The notes under the pieces are model-generated. The model ran no database searches. It worked only from the letters and a program-made list of their open reading frames with translations, and had not been told where the DNA came from. A DNA stretch of 64,000 bases, from positions 419,095 through 483,094 of the forward strand of contig NZ_JAHYCA010000001.1 of the NCBI RefSeq assembly GCF_019430905.1. The letters are read 5' to 3'. The position numbers were made by a program, and so were the translations under genes. The DNA is from Billgrantia antri. GTDB taxonomy: Bacteria > Pseudomonadota > Gammaproteobacteria > Pseudomonadales > Halomonadaceae. Below are positions 45,680-53,209 of this stretch, piece after piece (the stretch's first letter is position 1; each line of letters opens with the position of its first letter).

Positions 45680-46040
45680 GCATCACTCCTGAGAAATCCG
45701 TTGGTCGTCCTCGGATAGTGCCAGCCTCCCCGAGCAGATGCCAACTGGTTCAGGCTCGGCCTGGCCGTGACCGCCTTCCTGTCCATTAGTCTAATAACGA
45801 GTAAAGAAGATACTCTTATCAGCAGCAAGAAAGCCACTCTAAATCATTGATTTCAAAGAAATAAACCTGGACCACCCGGCACAGTGACAAGGCCTTCATA
45901 TTGGTAAGACCAATGAACCGTGGATAGCAACTTACCAGCACTCTCCGTATCGTTGCCGCCTGGCCGGCCACGGCAGAAGCGCCACGCCGGGTGACCTTCG
46001 CCCTGCCGGACGCCAATAAGGAGACATCCGAGGAAACGTC
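45680..46040. promoter_or_regulatory. Control region of the lactate/glycolate permease gene
   Basis: This 361-bp gap contains no gene. It includes an ATTAGTCTAAT palindrome at 45785 and an ATTGGT-AAG-ACCAAT operator at 45900. The right part carries the permease leader with AAGGAGACAT and GAGGAAACG. Confidence 0.6.
45900..45914. promoter_or_regulatory. LldR/PdhR/GlcC-type operator, ATTGGT-N3-ACCAAT
   Basis: This perfect inverted repeat with a 3-base spacer matches the consensus of the PdhR/LldR/GlcC branch of GntR regulators. It lies 127 bp upstream of the permease start. A sister site lies at 48649. Confidence 0.7.
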
Positions 46041-47744
46041 ATGACGGATACCACCCTAGCACTTCTTGCTTTCACGCCACTGATCCTGGCTGGCGTGCTG
46101 CTCATCGGTTTTCGCCTGGCGGCACGAACCGCCATGCCGATCGTCTTCGTGGTCACCGCCCTGATCGGGCTGTTCGCCTGGGAGATGAGCTTCAACCGGG
46201 TACTGGCCTCCACATTCCAAGGCCTGCTCCTGACCGTGTCGATCCTGTGGATCATCTTCGGCGCCATCCTGCTGCTAAACACGCTGAAGCACTCCGGCGG
46301 CATCGCGGCCATCCGCAACGGCTTTTCCGGGATCAGCCCCGACCGTCGCGTGCAGGCACTGATCGTCGCCTGGCTGTTCGGCTGCTTCATCGAAGGCGCC
46401 TCGGGCTTCGGCACCCCGGCGGCGGTGGCAGCCCCGCTGATGGTTGCACTGGGCTTTCCCGCCCTATCCGCCGTGGTGGTGGGCATGATGATCCAGTCCA
46501 CGCCCGTCTCCTTCGGCGCGGTGGGCACCCCGATCGTGGTCGGCGTGTCCGGGGGCGTCAACATGAATGCCATCACCGAGCAGCTCGAGGCGGGCGGCTT
46601 CACCTGGCTCGAGTACTTCCGTCTGATCGCCGCGGAAGTCGCCATCGTGCATGCCATCGTCGGCATCCTGATGCCGTTGATCATGGTGGTGATCATGGTG
46701 CGCTTCTTCGGCGCCAATCGCTCCTGGAAGGAGGGGCTCTCGATCACCCCGTTCGCCCTCTTCACCGGCGTGGCCTTCGTGGTGCCTTATGCCCTGGCGG
46801 GTGTACTGCTGGGGCCGGAATTCCCCTCGATGATCGGCGCCATGGTGGGGCTTGCCATCGTCGTGCCCGCGGCACGCCGCGGCTTCCTGCTGCCCAAGGA
46901 CAGTTGGGACTTCCCCGAGCGCGACGCCTGGCCGGCCGGCTGGATCGGCAAGATCGAGATCAAGATCGACGACATCGCCGGCAAGACGCCGCTCTCCACC
47001 TGGATGGGCTGGCTGCCCTACGTGCTGCTGGCGCTGTTCCTGGTGGCATCTCGCGTCATCGACCCGCTGCGTGAGGCGCTCACCGCCTTTGCCTTCGGCT
47101 GGAGCAACATCCTCGGCGAAACCGGCGTGTCCGGCAGCATCGCCCCGCTCTATCTCCCCGGCGGTATCCTGCTGATGGTGGTGCTGGTCACGGCGGTGCT
47201 GCATCGCATGCGCATCGGCGAGCTCAAGGCCGCCTTCGGCGAATCCTCACGCACCCTGCTCGGGGCCGGCTTCGTGCTGATCTTCACCATTCCCATGGTG
47301 CGCATCCTGATCAACTCCGGCGTCAACGCCGCCGACCTGGTCTCCATGCCGGTCGCCATGGCCCAGTTCGTGGCCGACAGCGTGGGCAGCGTCTACCCCT
47401 TCTTCGCCCCCGCCGTGGGTGCGCTGGGCGCCTTCATCGCCGGCTCCAATACGGTATCGAACCTGATGCTGGCCGAGTTCCAGTTCAACGTGGCCCAGCA
47501 ACTCGGTCTTTCCACCGCCTTCATGGTGGCGCTGCAGGCCGTCGGAGCCGCCGCCGGCAACATGATCGCCATCCACAACGTGGTGGCGGCATCGGCCACC
47601 GTGGGCCTGCTCGGCCGCGAAGGCGAGACGATCCGCAAGACTATCCTGCCGACGCTCTACTACCTGGTATTCGCCGGCGCGATCGGCTTGATCGCCTTCT
47701 ATGCACTCGGGGTGTCGGATCCGCTGATTCAGGTCGGGGGGTAA
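46041..47744 (+). CDS. L-lactate/glycolate permease (LldP/GlcA family)
   Basis: This 567-residue inner-membrane proton symporter has about 13-14 helices. [43 protein letters not shown] and [18 protein letters not shown] are signatures of the lactate permease family. E. coli LldP and GlcA both belong to it and carry lactate and glycolate. Its position next to glcC-glcDEFG and the shared operator type favour glycolate or broad 2-hydroxyacid uptake. It is convergent with glcC, and a GAGGAAACG ribosome-binding site is present. Confidence 0.92.
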
Positions 47745-47750
47745 TCCCCC

Positions 47751-47779
47751 GACGCCGCTGCCATCAGGGCAGCGGCGTC
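47751..47779. terminator. Perfect 12-bp hairpin between permease and glcC
   Basis: GACGCCGCTGCC and GGCAGCGGCGTC pair around ATCAG. It lies 6 bp after the permease stop, and its right arm overlaps the glcC stop codon. It is probably a two-way terminator for the convergent genes. Confidence 0.65.
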
Positions 47780-48555
47780 ACTCCCACTCCTGCAACCGCA
47801 TGGCCGAGCGCTCCAGGCGCTGATCCTCGGCCTCGATCTCTCTCAGCTCCGCTTCGATCGCCGACAGGTGATCGAGCGCGGCGCGCCGAGCTGCCTGGGG
47901 CTTGCCTCCCATCACGGCCCGGTAGAGCCGGGCGTGTTGGCGGTTGATCATCTGCCGCGGCGCCTCGCGGTGATAGAGGTTCTTCACCGAGGCGAATACC
48001 GAACTCAACAGCAGGTCGGTGAGCGACTGCAGCGTGTGCACCAGCACCGGGTTGTGCGATGCCTGGCAGATCGCCAGATGGAAGGCGTGGTCCAGGTGCG
48101 CCAGCCGCTCCACGTCGATCTCCTGTCCCGCCTCGACGTACTCGACCATCGCCTCGTAGCGACGCTGGATCAGCACCCGATCCGCCGGCGTGGCGCGCTC
48201 CGCTGCGAGACTGGCCGACTCGCCCTCCAGCAGCGAGCGCACTTCCAGCAAATCGAACAGCGTACGAGGGTGGTCGCGAAACAGGTGCATCAAGGGGCTG
48301 TCGTCCCCCCCCCGGCACCAGCGCCGCCACCACCGATCCGCGTCCTTGACGGGTGACGATGATGCCCTTGCTGCGCAGCACCCGCAGGCCCTCTCGTAGC
48401 GAGGTCCGCGAAACGCCGAGGCGATCGCACAGGCGTCGCTCGGAAGGCAGTAACTGCCCAGGGCGAAAGACGCCATCGAGTATCAACTCCTCCAGACGCG
48501 CCGCCACGGCATCGGGCGTACGCATCGGCGACAGCGGCTCACTATCCTCAAGCAT
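47778..48555 (-). pseudogene. glcC: GlcC-type GntR regulator, frameshifted in a G9 run
   Basis: GlcC is the regulator of the glycolate operon. The N-terminal winged helix reads in one frame (LEELILDGVFRPGQLLPSER, RLCDRLGVSRTSLREGLRVL) from ATG 48555, which has a GGAGGAGCC ribosome-binding site. The FCD domain continues in another frame (SPLMHLFRDHPRTLFDLLEV, then DHAFHLAICQASHNPVLVHT), closely matching E. coli GlcC. The switch falls in nine consecutive C on the plus strand (48305-48313); removing one restores a continuous protein of about 258 residues. Either the gene is inactivated, it is phase-variable through the homopolymer, or the run was miscounted. It is divergent from glcD. Confidence 0.85.
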
Positions 48556-48618
48556 GGGCTCCTCCGGCACGCAAGGCAGCGACTTGTATCCGTCGAGCGG
48601 TTGGGCCATGGTGTGACA

Positions 48619-48633
48619 TGAAAATATTTTCCA
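48619..48633. promoter_or_regulatory. IclR/AllR-like motif in the glcC-glcD gap
   Basis: TGAAAATATTTTCCA resembles the TGGAAAATATTT motifs upstream of gcl. It lies between glcC and glcD, 30 bp from the TGGT-N3-ACCA site. Confidence 0.4.
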
Positions 48634-48648
48634 AGATAGCTGGAAATA

Positions 48649-48663
48649 ACTGGTAATACCAGT
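48649..48663. promoter_or_regulatory. GlcC-type operator, ACTGGT-AAT-ACCAGT
   Basis: This perfect inverted repeat with a 3-base spacer lies in the 199-bp divergent gap. It is 92 bp upstream of glcD and 94 bp upstream of glcC, so it could serve both. Confidence 0.7.
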
Positions 48664-48754
48664 GGACCGGATGCTGGACAGGACGACCGGCTGGGCGCAA
48701 ATTGGGCCCTGCACCAGGACAACCCTGCCGCCAAGACTCGCAACGAGGCGCTAG

Positions 48755-50251
48755 ATGAACATCCTCTACGATGAACGACTCGACGGCCCGGCCCCCGAGC
48801 AGGACAGGGCAGCTATCCGCGACAGTCTCGCCCAGGCCATTCCGGACATGACCCTGTTGCACCGCGAGGAGGACATGCGCCCCTTCGAGTGCGATGGCCT
48901 TTCCGTCTACCGCACCCTGCCCTTGCTGGTGGCGCTACCCGACTCCCTCGACCAGGTCCAGCGCCTGCTGGTGGAGTGCCACCGCCTGGGCGTACCGGTA
49001 GTCACCCGTGGTGCCGGAACGGGGCTTTCCGCCGGCGCCCTGCCGCTCACGCATGGCGTGCTGCTGGTGATGTCGCGCTTCTCGCGCATTCTCGAGATCG
49101 ACCCCGAGGCGCGTATCGCCCGGGTCGAACCCGGCGTGCGCAACCTGGCCATCTCCGAGGCGGCTTCGCCCTACGGGCTCTACTACGCGCCGGACCCCTC
49201 GTCGCAGATCGCCTGTTCGATCGGCGGCAACGTTGCCGAGAACGCCGGCGGCGTGCACTGCCTGAAGTACGGCCTCACCGTGCACAACGTGATCAAGGTC
49301 GAGATTCTCACCATCGAAGGCGAGCGCATGACGCTGGGCAGCGATGCGCTGGATGCGCCCGGCTTCGACCTGCTGGCGCTGTACAACGGCTCCGAGGGCA
49401 TGCTCGGCGTGGTCACCGAAATCACCGTCAAGCTGCTGCCCAAGCCGGAGGTGGCCAAGGTGCTGATGGCCAGCTTCGATGACGTGGAGAAGGCCGGCAA
49501 CGCGGTCGGCGCCATCATCGAGGCCGGCATCATCCCCGGTGGCCTGGAGATGATGGACAAGCTCGCCATCATCGCTGCCGAGGATTTCATCGGCGCCGGC
49601 TACCCGGTGGATGCCGAGGCGATCCTGCTGTGCGAGCTCGACGGTGTCGAGGCCGATGTCGACGATGACTGCGAGACCGTGCGCCGCGTGCTCGAGAACG
49701 CCGGCGCCACCGGTATCCAGCAGGCCCGCGACGACGCCGAGCGCGCCAGGTTCTGGGCCGGGCGCAAGAACGCCTTCCCCGCCGTGGGGCGCATGTCGCC
49801 CGACTACTACTGCATGGACGGCACCATCCCGCGGCGCGAGCTGGCCCGCGTGCTCAAGGGCATCAGCGACCTCTCCGAGCGCTACGGGCTCAAGGTGGCC
49901 AACGTCTTCCATGCCGGCGACGGCAACATGCACCCGCTGATCCTGTTCGACGCCAACCGCGAGGGCGAACTGGCCGTGGCCGAAGCGCTGGGTGGCGAGA
50001 TCCTCGAGCTGTGCGTCAGAGTCGGGGGCACCATCACCGGCGAGCACGGGGTCGGTCGCGAAAAGATCAACCAGATGTGCGCCCAGTTCCGCCCCGACGA
50101 ACTGGCCACCTTCCGCGCTACCAAGGCCGCCTTCGATCCACGCGACCTGCTCAACCCGGGCAAGAACATCCCCACCCCGGCGCGCTGCTCGGAGTTCCGC
50201 ACCATCAAGAGTGCGAGTGCTGATACCGCGCCCGGCAAGTTGCAAGGCTGA
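48755..50251 (+). CDS. glcD: Glycolate oxidase subunit GlcD
   Basis: This 498-residue FAD subunit oxidises glycolate (and often D-lactate) to glyoxylate. The VAO-type FAD domain shows VTRGAGTGLSAGALPLTHGV near residue 85 and CSIGGNVAENAGGVHCLKYG near 150. The C-terminal half contains VFHAGDGNMHPL, and GEHGVGREK is near the end. A GAGGCG ribosome-binding site precedes ATG 48755. It forms the glcDEF complex at the inner membrane and supplies glyoxylate to Gcl. glcE starts 12 bp after its stop. Confidence 0.96.
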   Translation: MNILYDERLDGPAPEQDRAAIRDSLAQAIPDMTLLHREEDMRPFECDGLSVYRTLPLLVALPDSLDQVQRLLVECHRLGVPVVTRGAGTGLSAGALPLTHGVLLVMSRFSRILEIDPEARIARVEPGVRNLAISEAASPYGLYYAPDPSSQIACSIGGNVAENAGGVHCLKYGLTVHNVIKVEILTIEGERMTLGSDALDAPGFDLLALYNGSEGMLGVVTEITVKLLPKPEVAKVLMASFDDVEKAGNAVGAIIEAGIIPGGLEMMDKLAIIAAEDFIGAGYPVDAEAILLCELDGVEADVDDDCETVRRVLENAGATGIQQARDDAERARFWAGRKNAFPAVGRMSPDYYCMDGTIPRRELARVLKGISDLSERYGLKVANVFHAGDGNMHPLILFDANREGELAVAEALGGEILELCVRVGGTITGEHGVGREKINQMCAQFRPDELATFRATKAAFDPRDLLNPGKNIPTPARCSEFRTIKSASADTAPGKLQG

Positions 50252-50263
50252 ACGGGAATGACC

Positions 50264-51355
50264 ATGGCTAACACAACGCATCTCACTGACCATGATGCCA
50301 GCGCCGCCCTGGCCGAGCGCATCCGCCAGGCCGGCAGCGAGGGCACGTCGCTGCGCATCGTGGGTGGCGACACGCGCTTCTTCTATGGCCGCGAGGTGGC
50401 AGGCGAAGTGCTCTCCACCCGCGAACACCGCGGCATACGCTTCTACGACCCGGTGGAGTTGGTAGTGTCGGTGCGCGCCGGCACCCCGCTCAGCGAACTC
50501 GAAGCCACCCTGGCCAAGCATGGCCAGATGCTGCCCTTCGAGCCGCCGCGCTACGGCGAGGTCAGCACGGTCGGAGGCATGGTCGCCACGGGGCTCTCCG
50601 GTCCGCGTCGCCCCTGGGCCGGCAGCGTGCGCGACTTCGTGCTGGGCGCCCGGGTCATCAACCACGAAGGCATCGAACAGCGCTTCGGCGGCGAGGTGAT
50701 GAAGAACGTCGCCGGCTACGATCTGTCGCGCCTGATGGTCGGCGCCCAGGGCACCCTGGGGCTGATCACCGAGGTCTCGTTCAAGGTGCTGCCGATGCCC
50801 GGCGCCACCCGCAGCCTGCACTTGGAGCTGCCGCTCGACGAGGCCCGCCAGCGCCTGGCCGAGTGGGGCCGCGAGCCGTTGCCGATCAGTGCCGCGGCCT
50901 GGCTCGATGGCGCCCTTCACCTGCGCCTGGAAGGCGGCCCCAGCTCGGTGGCCGCCACCCGCGCACGCATCGGTGGCGACGACCTCGAAAACGACTTCTG
51001 GGCCGCCCTGCGCGACCAGCGCCTGGCGTTCTTCCGTGCCGGCCAGGCGCCGCTGTGGCGCCTCTCGCTGCCCCACCGCACGCCAGCGCTGGACCTGCCC
51101 GGCATCGACGAGAGCCACATGATTCACGATTGGGCCGGTGCCCAGCGCTGGCTACGCGCCGAGCTGGATGCCGAGGCCGTGCGCCGGGCCTGCCAGACAG
51201 CCGGCGGCCATGCCACCTGCTACGGCCCACGTCCGACCGCGATAGAGCCCTTCGCGCCGCTTCCCGAGGTACTGATGAAATATCACCGCAACCTCAAGGC
51301 CCAGCTCGACCCCAAGGGAATCTTCAACCCCGGCCGGCTCTACGCGGCGCTCTGA
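50264..51355 (+). CDS. glcE: Glycolate oxidase FAD-binding subunit GlcE
   Basis: This 363-residue protein has a truncated FAD-binding domain: GEVSTVGGMVATGLSGPRRP near residue 105 and GGEVMKNVAGYDLSRLMVGA near 145. It is the second FAD-type subunit of the glycolate oxidase complex. ATG 50264 is preferred over 50258 because CGGGA sits at usable spacing. The C-terminus FNPGRLYAAL is characteristic of GlcE. It is followed 18 bp later by glcF. Confidence 0.95.
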   Translation: MANTTHLTDHDASAALAERIRQAGSEGTSLRIVGGDTRFFYGREVAGEVLSTREHRGIRFYDPVELVVSVRAGTPLSELEATLAKHGQMLPFEPPRYGEVSTVGGMVATGLSGPRRPWAGSVRDFVLGARVINHEGIEQRFGGEVMKNVAGYDLSRLMVGAQGTLGLITEVSFKVLPMPGATRSLHLELPLDEARQRLAEWGREPLPISAAAWLDGALHLRLEGGPSSVAATRARIGGDDLENDFWAALRDQRLAFFRAGQAPLWRLSLPHRTPALDLPGIDESHMIHDWAGAQRWLRAELDAEAVRRACQTAGGHATCYGPRPTAIEPFAPLPEVLMKYHRNLKAQLDPKGIFNPGRLYAAL

Positions 51356-51373
51356 GAAGCACAGGATCTCGAC

Positions 51374-52621
51374 ATGCAGACGCACTTCACCGAGGAAGCC
51401 CTCAAGCAGCCGCACATCCAGGAGGCCGACCGCGTCCTGCGCAGCTGCGTGCACTGCGGCTTCTGCAACGCCACCTGCCCTACCTACCAGTTGCTGGGCG
51501 ACGAGCGCGACGGGCCACGCGGGCGCATCTACCTGATGAAGCAGATGCTGGAGAACCCGGACGACAGCGAGAACGTCACCGAGCAGACCCGCCTGCACCT
51601 GGACCGCTGCCTGACCTGTCGCAACTGCGAAACGACCTGCCCCTCGGGCGTGGAGTACCACAAGCTGCTCGACATCGGCCGCGCCGAGATCGAGCGCCGC
51701 GTGCCGCGCAGCACCGCCGACCGCGCCCAGCGCTACGTCCTGCGCAAGACCCTGGTCGAGCCCAAACGCTTCCAGGCGCTGCTCAAGCTGGGCCAGACCT
51801 TCCGCCCGCTGGTGCCCGGCAAGCTCAAGGACAAGCTGCCACCCAAGCCGGTGGATGCCGGCACGCGCCCCGACCACCAGCGTCATGCGCGGCAGATGCT
51901 GGTTCTCGAAGGCTGCGTGCAGCCGGGCCTCTCGCCCAACACCAACGCCGCCACTGCGCGGGTGCTCGACCGCCTGGGCATCGGCCTCACGCCGGTGGCC
52001 GAGGCCGGCTGCTGCGGCGCCATCGACTTTCACCTCAATGCCCAGGACGACGGCCGCGCCCGTGCACGGGCCAACATCGACGCCTGGTGGCCGCATATCG
52101 AGGCCGGCTGTGAGGCCATCGTCCAGACCGCCAGCGGCTGCGGCGCCTTCGTCAAGGAGTACGTCGACATCCTCAATGACGACCCCGCCTACGCCGACAA
52201 GGCCAGGCGGGTGAGCGAACTGGCCAAGGACCTGGTCGAGGTGCTGCGCGAAGAAGACCTGCAAGGCTTGAAAGTCGACGCGGGCCGCAGGCTGGCCTTC
52301 CACTGCCCCTGCACCCTGCAGCACGCCCAGCGGCTCGGCGGCGCGGTGGAGGGCGTGCTGGTCAAGCTCGGCTTCACCCTGACCCCGGTAGCCGACGCCC
52401 ACCTCTGCTGCGGCTCGGCAGGCACCTACTCGATCACCCAGCTGGAGCTGGCCACCCAACTGCGCGACAACAAGCTCAACGCCCTTGAGGCCGGCAACCC
52501 GGAAACCATCGTCACCGCCAACATCGGCTGCCAGACCCACCTCAACGGCGCGGGGCGCACACCGGTCAGGCATTGGATAGAAGTTGTCGATGACGCATTG
52601 GCACCGCCCGTAAGCAGCTAG
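51374..52621 (+). CDS. glcF: Glycolate oxidase iron-sulfur subunit GlcF
   Basis: This 415-residue electron-transfer subunit has two 4Fe-4S motifs (CVHCGFCNATCP near residue 24 and CLTCRNCETTCP near 77) and the two CCG domains of the family (EAGCCGAIDFHLNA and LCCGSAGTYS). It passes electrons from GlcD/E to the quinone pool. It begins ETHF-like as MQTHFTEEALKQP. It is third in the glcDEFG operon. Confidence 0.97.
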   Translation: MQTHFTEEALKQPHIQEADRVLRSCVHCGFCNATCPTYQLLGDERDGPRGRIYLMKQMLENPDDSENVTEQTRLHLDRCLTCRNCETTCPSGVEYHKLLDIGRAEIERRVPRSTADRAQRYVLRKTLVEPKRFQALLKLGQTFRPLVPGKLKDKLPPKPVDAGTRPDHQRHARQMLVLEGCVQPGLSPNTNAATARVLDRLGIGLTPVAEAGCCGAIDFHLNAQDDGRARARANIDAWWPHIEAGCEAIVQTASGCGAFVKEYVDILNDDPAYADKARRVSELAKDLVEVLREEDLQGLKVDAGRRLAFHCPCTLQHAQRLGGAVEGVLVKLGFTLTPVADAHLCCGSAGTYSITQLELATQLRDNKLNALEAGNPETIVTANIGCQTHLNGAGRTPVRHWIEVVDDALAPPVSS

Positions 52622-52672: not shown

Positions 52673-52764
52673 CGGGGACAAGCCAAAGCGAGGGTCTTTT
52701 GCCATGGATGGCAAAAGTAGCGCCCAAGTACGGGTTCACAGCGCCCTCGCGTGGCTTTGTCGCC
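52673..52764 (+). repeat. Structured intergenic repeat, copy 4 (glcF-glcG)
   Basis: This copy has the same orientation as copy 1 and the identical core hairpin CTTTTGCCATGGATGGCAAA. The outer arms GACAAGCCAAAGCGAGGG and CCCTCGCGTGGCTTTGTC pair with each other and differ from the arms in the other copies. It splits glcF from glcG by 186 bp. Confidence 0.85.
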
Positions 52765-52807
52765 GGGAAGCTCATCACCGACAACATTGCGACTCAAGGA
52801 GAGTCCC

Positions 52808-53209
52808 ATGAAGACCAAACCCGTACTCACCCTGACCGACGTCAACGCCATCCTCGACGCGGCCCAGCAAGAAGCCGAAGCCAACGACTGGAAAGTGACC
52901 ATCGCCGTGGCCGACGACGGCGGCCACCTGCTCGGCCTGCGCCGCCTCGACGGCGCCCCGGCCATGACCCCCGACATCGCCACCCAGAAAGCCCGCAGCT
53001 CGGCGCTCGGTGCCCGCGAAACCCAGGCCTTCGAGGACATGATCAACGGCGGCCGCAACGCCTTCCTCTCCGCGCCGATGCAGGGCCTGCTCGCCGGCGG
53101 CGTGCCGGTAATGGTCGAGGGCCAGATGGCCGGCACCGTGGGCGTTTCCGGCGTCAAGCCCGATCAGGACGTACAGGTCGCCAAGGCCGGCATCGCCGCC
53201 GTCGGTTGA
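52808..53209 (+). CDS. glcG: GlcG/HbpS-family protein
   Basis: This 133-residue protein belongs to the GlcG/HbpS family (DUF336), members of which bind haem or act with redox enzymes. LTLTDVNAILDAAQQEAEAN at the start and VTIAVADDGGHLLGLRRLDGA are diagnostic, as are KARSSALGARETQ and GTVGVSGVKPDQD. The start at 52808 has AGGAGAGTC upstream. It is the last gene of glcDEFG, as in E. coli where glcG follows glcF, and its exact role remains unknown. A terminator follows. Confidence 0.92.
   Translation: MKTKPVLTLTDVNAILDAAQQEAEANDWKVTIAVADDGGHLLGLRRLDGAPAMTPDIATQKARSSALGARETQAFEDMINGGRNAFLSAPMQGLLAGGVPVMVEGQMAGTVGVSGVKPDQDVQVAKAGIAAVG

Follow-up and report, generated by a model that had tools for sequence, protein, structure and literature searches.

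The glycolate regulator gene glcC of Billgrantia antri has probably been inactivated in the sequenced strain by a recent mutation. In the stretch of DNA that was analyzed (64,000 nucleotides, hereafter the window), the reading frame of glcC breaks at a run of nine G. This run is absent from the examined relatives, the surrounding genes are intact, and the constraint on the FCD half of the protein is undiminished. From these observations we infer the order of events, the loss of function, and the phenotype described below. An earlier note on this DNA had offered three readings of the break, namely a slippage switch, an inactivating mutation, and a sequencing or assembly error. The comparison with relatives favors a recent inactivating slip, with an error as a clearly less probable explanation and a switch as an unlikely one.

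Two halves of glcC in two reading frames

The glcC-like gene is located on the minus strand between the gene for an LctP-type permease (46041-47744) and glcDEF (48755-52621). The coordinates of the individual features are presented in Table 1. The HTH half was identified with Pfam PF00392 (3e-20) and the FCD half with PF07729 (6.9e-25), in different frames. Using the NCBIfam model for GlcC (NF007442), the HTH piece was found to cover model positions 11-77 (97 bits) and the FCD piece positions 79-255 (267.9 bits). A profile search of the whole genome recovered the same two pieces, and over both searches their scores were 95.9-97 and 266.9-267.9 bits, respectively. The GntR HTH and FCD domains of the GlcC family are both present, but they are split over two frames, and in the whole-genome search no single open frame of glcC reached the NF007442 cut-off of 301 bits. 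A second GlcC above this cut-off was not found in the genome, where the next match scored 165.9 bits.

Table 1. Features of the glcC locus and G runs of the immunity-like array (window positions, except for the array)
Feature	Position	Strand	Remarks
LctP-type lactate/glycolate permease, open	46041..47744	+	PF02652; TIGR00795 330.1 bits, below cut-off 341.15
glcC 3' half, FCD ligand-binding domain	47778..48299	-	other frame; mechanical ORF 47778-48476
Run of nine G in gene (nine C on +)	48305..48313	-	HTH/FCD linker; frame changes here
glcC 5' half, GntR-type HTH	48316..48714	-	Pfam match ~48328-48513; frame open to 47764; mechanical GTG at 48714
Operator-like palindrome ACTGGTAATACCAGT	48649..48663	.	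between glcC and glcD
glcD, glycolate oxidase subunit, open	48755..50251	+	NF008408 919.6 bits (cut-off 897); TIGR00387 545.5 (cut-off 567.9)
glcE, open	50258..51355	+	NF008439 501.8 bits (cut-off 284)
glcF, open	51374..52621	+	NF008434 671.3 bits (cut-off 333)
HbpS-like (GlcG-type) gene, open	52751..53209	+	PF03928; NF007275 143.4 bits, below cut-off 246
Immunity-like G runs	L134 1468-1475, 5395-5404 = G000:C9:76767-76774, 80694-80703		frame junction

The matches to Pfam and NF007442 confirm what the earlier note had read from the letters, that the DNA-binding and FCD halves lie in different frames, and the nine C on the plus strand (nine G in the gene) were found as it had described them. 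Its statement that the homopolymer splits the gene holds for the reading frames; the gene is not shortened by it. The HTH frame continues past the run, in a mechanical ORF of 316 amino acids. Since no early stop is encountered, the predicted product, an HTH domain followed by ~180 out-of-frame residues, would be full-length with a wrong second half rather than truncated. The out-of-frame tail matches no Pfam family, and no encoded relative of it was found among 592 pattern stretches. The open length of the shifted frame was considered as a sign of selection and then dropped. In relatives this frame is open for anywhere from 0 to 835 codons, and its openness here therefore carries no special meaning. 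No other copy of the glcC junction was found in a pattern scan of viral contigs, and a search of plasmids returned distant relatives only (21 records, all at 60-80% identity).

The gene adjoins glcDEF divergently, as expected of GlcC, and a malate synthase G is encoded at another place in the genome. The earlier claim that all other glc genes are intact stands for GlcD, GlcE, and GlcF, each of which scores above one equivalog cut-off, with GlcD under that of TIGR00387. Two further genes, the HbpS-like one and that of the LctP-type permease, are open as well, with scores below the cut-offs of their best NCBIfam models. The palindrome ACTGGTAATACCAGT is probably an operator to which GlcC would bind. 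In 69 of 76 relative loci, the pattern TGGTNNNACCA is present no more than 500 bases upstream of the HTH match, and it is this position that supports the palindrome. The rarity of the pattern is weaker evidence; ACTGGTNNNACCAGT occurs at one place in the genome and its backward control at two.

The TGGTNNNACCA core occurs three times in the 64-kb window. Another such palindrome (ATTGGTAAGACCAAT) was observed at 45900-45914, ~130 bases upstream of the gene for the LctP-type permease, which may thus be under the control of the same or a related regulator.

The glcC junction in relatives and the age of the break

The genome of B. antri, a member of the Halomonas group, comprises 4.39 Mb in 12 contigs and is 99.99% complete. 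Among the named matches, Billgrantia species account for most of the best ones to the FCD half. A sample of 90 genomes, one per species, was searched for glcC, and a match was found in 61 and none in the other 29. The 61 consist of the genome of the window itself, 46 relatives whose match is long, and 14 genomes in which all matches are short. Loci were examined for 29 of the 46 long-match relatives, and the other 17 are perhaps partly contained within an additional set of 49 named loci. The junction was thus read in 78 loci, 29 from the genus genomes and 49 named. Because the two sets overlap, the counts are also given as distinct sequences, of which there are 58 among 76 loci.

Both halves of glcC were found in one open frame in 76 of the 78 loci. 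The other two (L022 and L044) represent a single contig of Billgrantia bachuensis that ends inside glcC; the partner contig spans the junction and has no long run there. None of the 58 distinct sequences has more than 4 consecutive G near the junction. At the site of the unbroken run in the window, eight of these read GGGG and then an arginine codon, and the others differ more. By this comparison, neither the run nor the frame break of this genome is shared by any other genome examined. In the B. bachuensis assembly, the break inside glcC falls between the end of G008:C15, the contig of L022 and L044, and the start of C16 (L145 and L146), with ~ten bases missing between them.

The constraint test covered the FCD half of the gene. 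The median omega was determined to be 0.091 over 20 comparisons of the window with its nearest relatives, versus 0.096 among those relatives. The latter value was obtained from 185 of 190 pairs, five having been dropped with a dS that was undefined or 0.2 or less. The mean dN to the outgroups was 0.210, and the 20 relatives span 0.161-0.243. Four residues are unique to the window, compared with 0-9 for each of 18 near relatives. The nucleotide tree places the window weakly (support 0.45). The smallest synonymous distance printed was 0.47. With an FCD half that has not decayed and a smallest printed dS of 0.47, the break must be recent relative to the split of the species, or not real. An omega of the FCD half that is as low as in relatives speaks against an old pseudogene, and in the absence of relaxed constraint the loss of glcC, if real, would be recent.

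A switch is expected to show a run that is kept at its place and varies in length. As in a slipped-strand contingency locus, a homopolymer inside the coding sequence of glcC sets the frame, and nine G are long enough to slip. The run at the homologous place that such a locus should have is, however, absent from all 58 distinct relative sequences. The comparison of the tract in relatives counts against the switch. Since glcC is without a kept, length-varying run, we regard as unlikely a selected slippage switch by which part of the population would lose the use of glycolate or have it constitutively. Such a switch would agree with the continued constraint on the FCD half and with the C6/C7 homopolymer of bvgS (PMC1891110), which shows that runs in regulator genes act as switches elsewhere, but it finds no support in the sequences compared here. 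Moreover, the same genome contains a better contingency candidate, described below, that does keep its place and vary in length. As judged by titles and the openings of abstracts, the papers listed in a literature search gave no sign of a glcC frameshift switch in glycolate use, and a second search found no report of phase variation by a homopolymeric tract in Halomonas.

The homopolymer at the junction and the continued constraint on the FCD half would also be compatible with slippage at the nine G, in transcription or on the ribosome, through which some full-length GlcC would still be made. This we consider very improbable, because the run is in none of the examined relatives and is thus not a conserved programmed site. 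The conserved slippery site expected of a gene with programmed frameshifting or transcriptional slippage is absent from the 58 distinct relative sequences. Transcriptional slippage is best documented at runs of A or T. A word search of PMC6260861 found no passage on slippage at G runs.

Mutation or misread base

Frameshifts in homopolymers are commonplace. The number of G/C runs of at least nine bases expected per 64 kb is 1.0, 0.10, or 0.15 for Markov models of order 1, 2, and 3, respectively. The genome has 9 such runs in 4.39 Mb, or ~0.13 per 64 kb. A run of nine is therefore not rarer than expected, and it is the broken frame at the run that stands out. An unusual abundance of long G runs was likewise rejected, with 17 overlapping nine-mers in this genome compared with 1 to 187 over the 90 genomes. 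Hypermutation through the loss of mismatch repair was rejected on the sequence, since mutS and mutL are open.

A total of 28 G/C runs of at least eight bases, merged from 45 overlapping matches, were found in the genome, and all of them were inspected. Nineteen are 8 long, six are 9 long, and there is one each of 10, 11, and 14. Eleven of the 28 are inside a Pfam match and all eleven are in frame; three of these are nine long, one of them in ftsA. Three are at frame breaks, in glcC and in two copies of an immunity-like gene. The remaining 14 are intergenic, near the ends of ORFs, or have no domain across them.

These counts bear on the possibility that the nine G are a sequencing or assembly miscall, in which case the real run would be in frame and glcC would be normal. 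We consider this the less probable explanation, though a substantial one. Long G runs are hard to read; a deposited G11 of Bifidobacterium breve was ~60% G12 and 37% G11 on maximum-depth sequencing (PMC9187656). An FCD half without relaxed constraint and the open frame in 76 of 78 relative loci are also as expected from a miscall. A survey that covered 1,106 prokaryotic genomes expected most BLASTp-supported singletons to be sequencing errors and not true indels (PMC3711429). The glcC break is of this type and does not differ in kind from the single-genome frameshifts of that GeneTack survey, which occur in one genome only and are supported by homology. The two further runs at frame breaks, in the immunity-like gene pair, could be miscalls too. 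Against a miscall, the eleven domain-internal runs in frame indicate that there is no general miscalling of homopolymers, and the assembly is good.

The same observations qualify the reading of a recent mutation, which we nevertheless favor. The absence of any decay fits a misread base equally well, BLASTp-supported singletons are expected to be errors, and with MutS and MutL open, an elevated rate of slippage is not expected. The private run, the constrained FCD half, and the intact neighbors together with intact mutS and mutL are consistent with either a miscall or a slip that occurred very recently in a run that had only just formed.

For a recent inactivating mutation, we propose that an interrupted G-rich stretch in the variable linker was turned by substitution into a long G run and that replication slippage then altered the length of this run by one base. 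The varied residues found in the linker among relatives show that it tolerates change. Ribosomes would continue out of frame past the run without soon meeting a stop codon, and the product would keep the DNA-binding domain but lack the FCD sensor domain and presumably, with it, the response to glycolate. Should GlcC activate glcDEF here, as in E. coli, these genes would no longer be inducible until the run returned to an in-frame length. Nine G could do so by ordinary slippage, which does not require that the run was ever selected as a switch. A hotspot for changes of G:C to C:G beside C runs could explain the birth of the run, but it is reported as negligible in repair-proficient strains (PMC13250602) and is therefore no more than a lead.

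The GlcC of E. coli is described as an activator of glcDEF, and the related GlcR of Paracoccus as a repressor (PMC11323563). Loss of GlcC in this strain could thus leave glcDEF uninduced or, with lower probability, expressed constitutively. A real break would predict an abnormal response to glycolate in a strain that has the enzymes, and a prediction of the pathway from gene content would then be wrong for this strain. It is also conceivable, though improbable, that glcC is a contingency locus at its birth, in which a single lineage has only now acquired a slippery G run from an interrupted linker stretch, with the use of glycolate now flickering in the population and the rest of the regulon in place.

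The locus resembles that of the E. coli GlcC (NF007442) in that the halves match successive parts of the model, the gene is divergent from glcDEF, and a TGGTNNNACCA palindrome lies between. It differs in that the halves are in different frames and no single frame is above the cut-off. In bvgS of Bordetella pertussis, the change of one base in a homopolymer (C6/C7) similarly inactivates a regulator gene (PMC1891110). Variation in the length of the bvgS tract is documented within the species and within cultures, whereas the glcC run is found in one genome and in no examined relative. The pilus genes of Bifidobacterium breve also contain a G run in the coding sequence with the two halves in different frames, but those tracts are reported to be conserved in the genus and variable in the population (PMC9187656), and the glcC run is not conserved.

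A chance frameshift in a homopolymer can be told from a contingency locus when the run, and not just the gene, is compared in relatives. An ordinary mutation of recent origin, or else a misread base, is the most likely explanation of the break in glcC, rather than a switch that evolved to turn the gene on and off.

A candidate contingency tract and other long runs in the genome

The two immunity-like runs belong to a tandem gene array on contig C9, located behind genes for VgrG, a DUF4123 protein, and a VasX_N effector. In two copies of the array gene, a G run (8 and 10) marks the point at which the frame shifts between the N-terminal part and the membrane part that follows it. The copy with 8 G also lacks ~77 bases of the query and may therefore be a remnant. 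The array genes match DUF6708 below the cut-off (23 of 27 bits); a DUF6708 protein is given as a T6SS immunity protein in PMC13340143.

Matches were found at 28 places in 21 of the 90 genomes, and 13 copies from 10 genomes that cover the run were read (relatives L150-L158, L170, and L171). The run is unbroken in 10 of the 13 copies, with 6 to 10 G, and is interrupted in the other three. Five of the 13 are out of frame, and the two copies in this genome belong to these five. A run with a constant position and a variable length in a gene of bacterial conflict looks like a contingency tract, and we conclude from these copies that the array likely contains one in type VI secretion immunity-like genes. 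Miscalls in draft genomes could add to the variation in length. A literature search found no paper joining a phase-variable homopolymeric tract with type VI secretion immunity proteins.

Two other long runs were noted. Eleven G are found just before the ATG of pqqD (L112 1507-1517; G000:C1:405306-405316), about where the ribosome-binding site would be, and the length of this run could tune the translation of pqqD. The longest G/C run of the genome consists of fourteen C and is apparently intergenic (L117 1515-1528; G000:C2:68214-68227).
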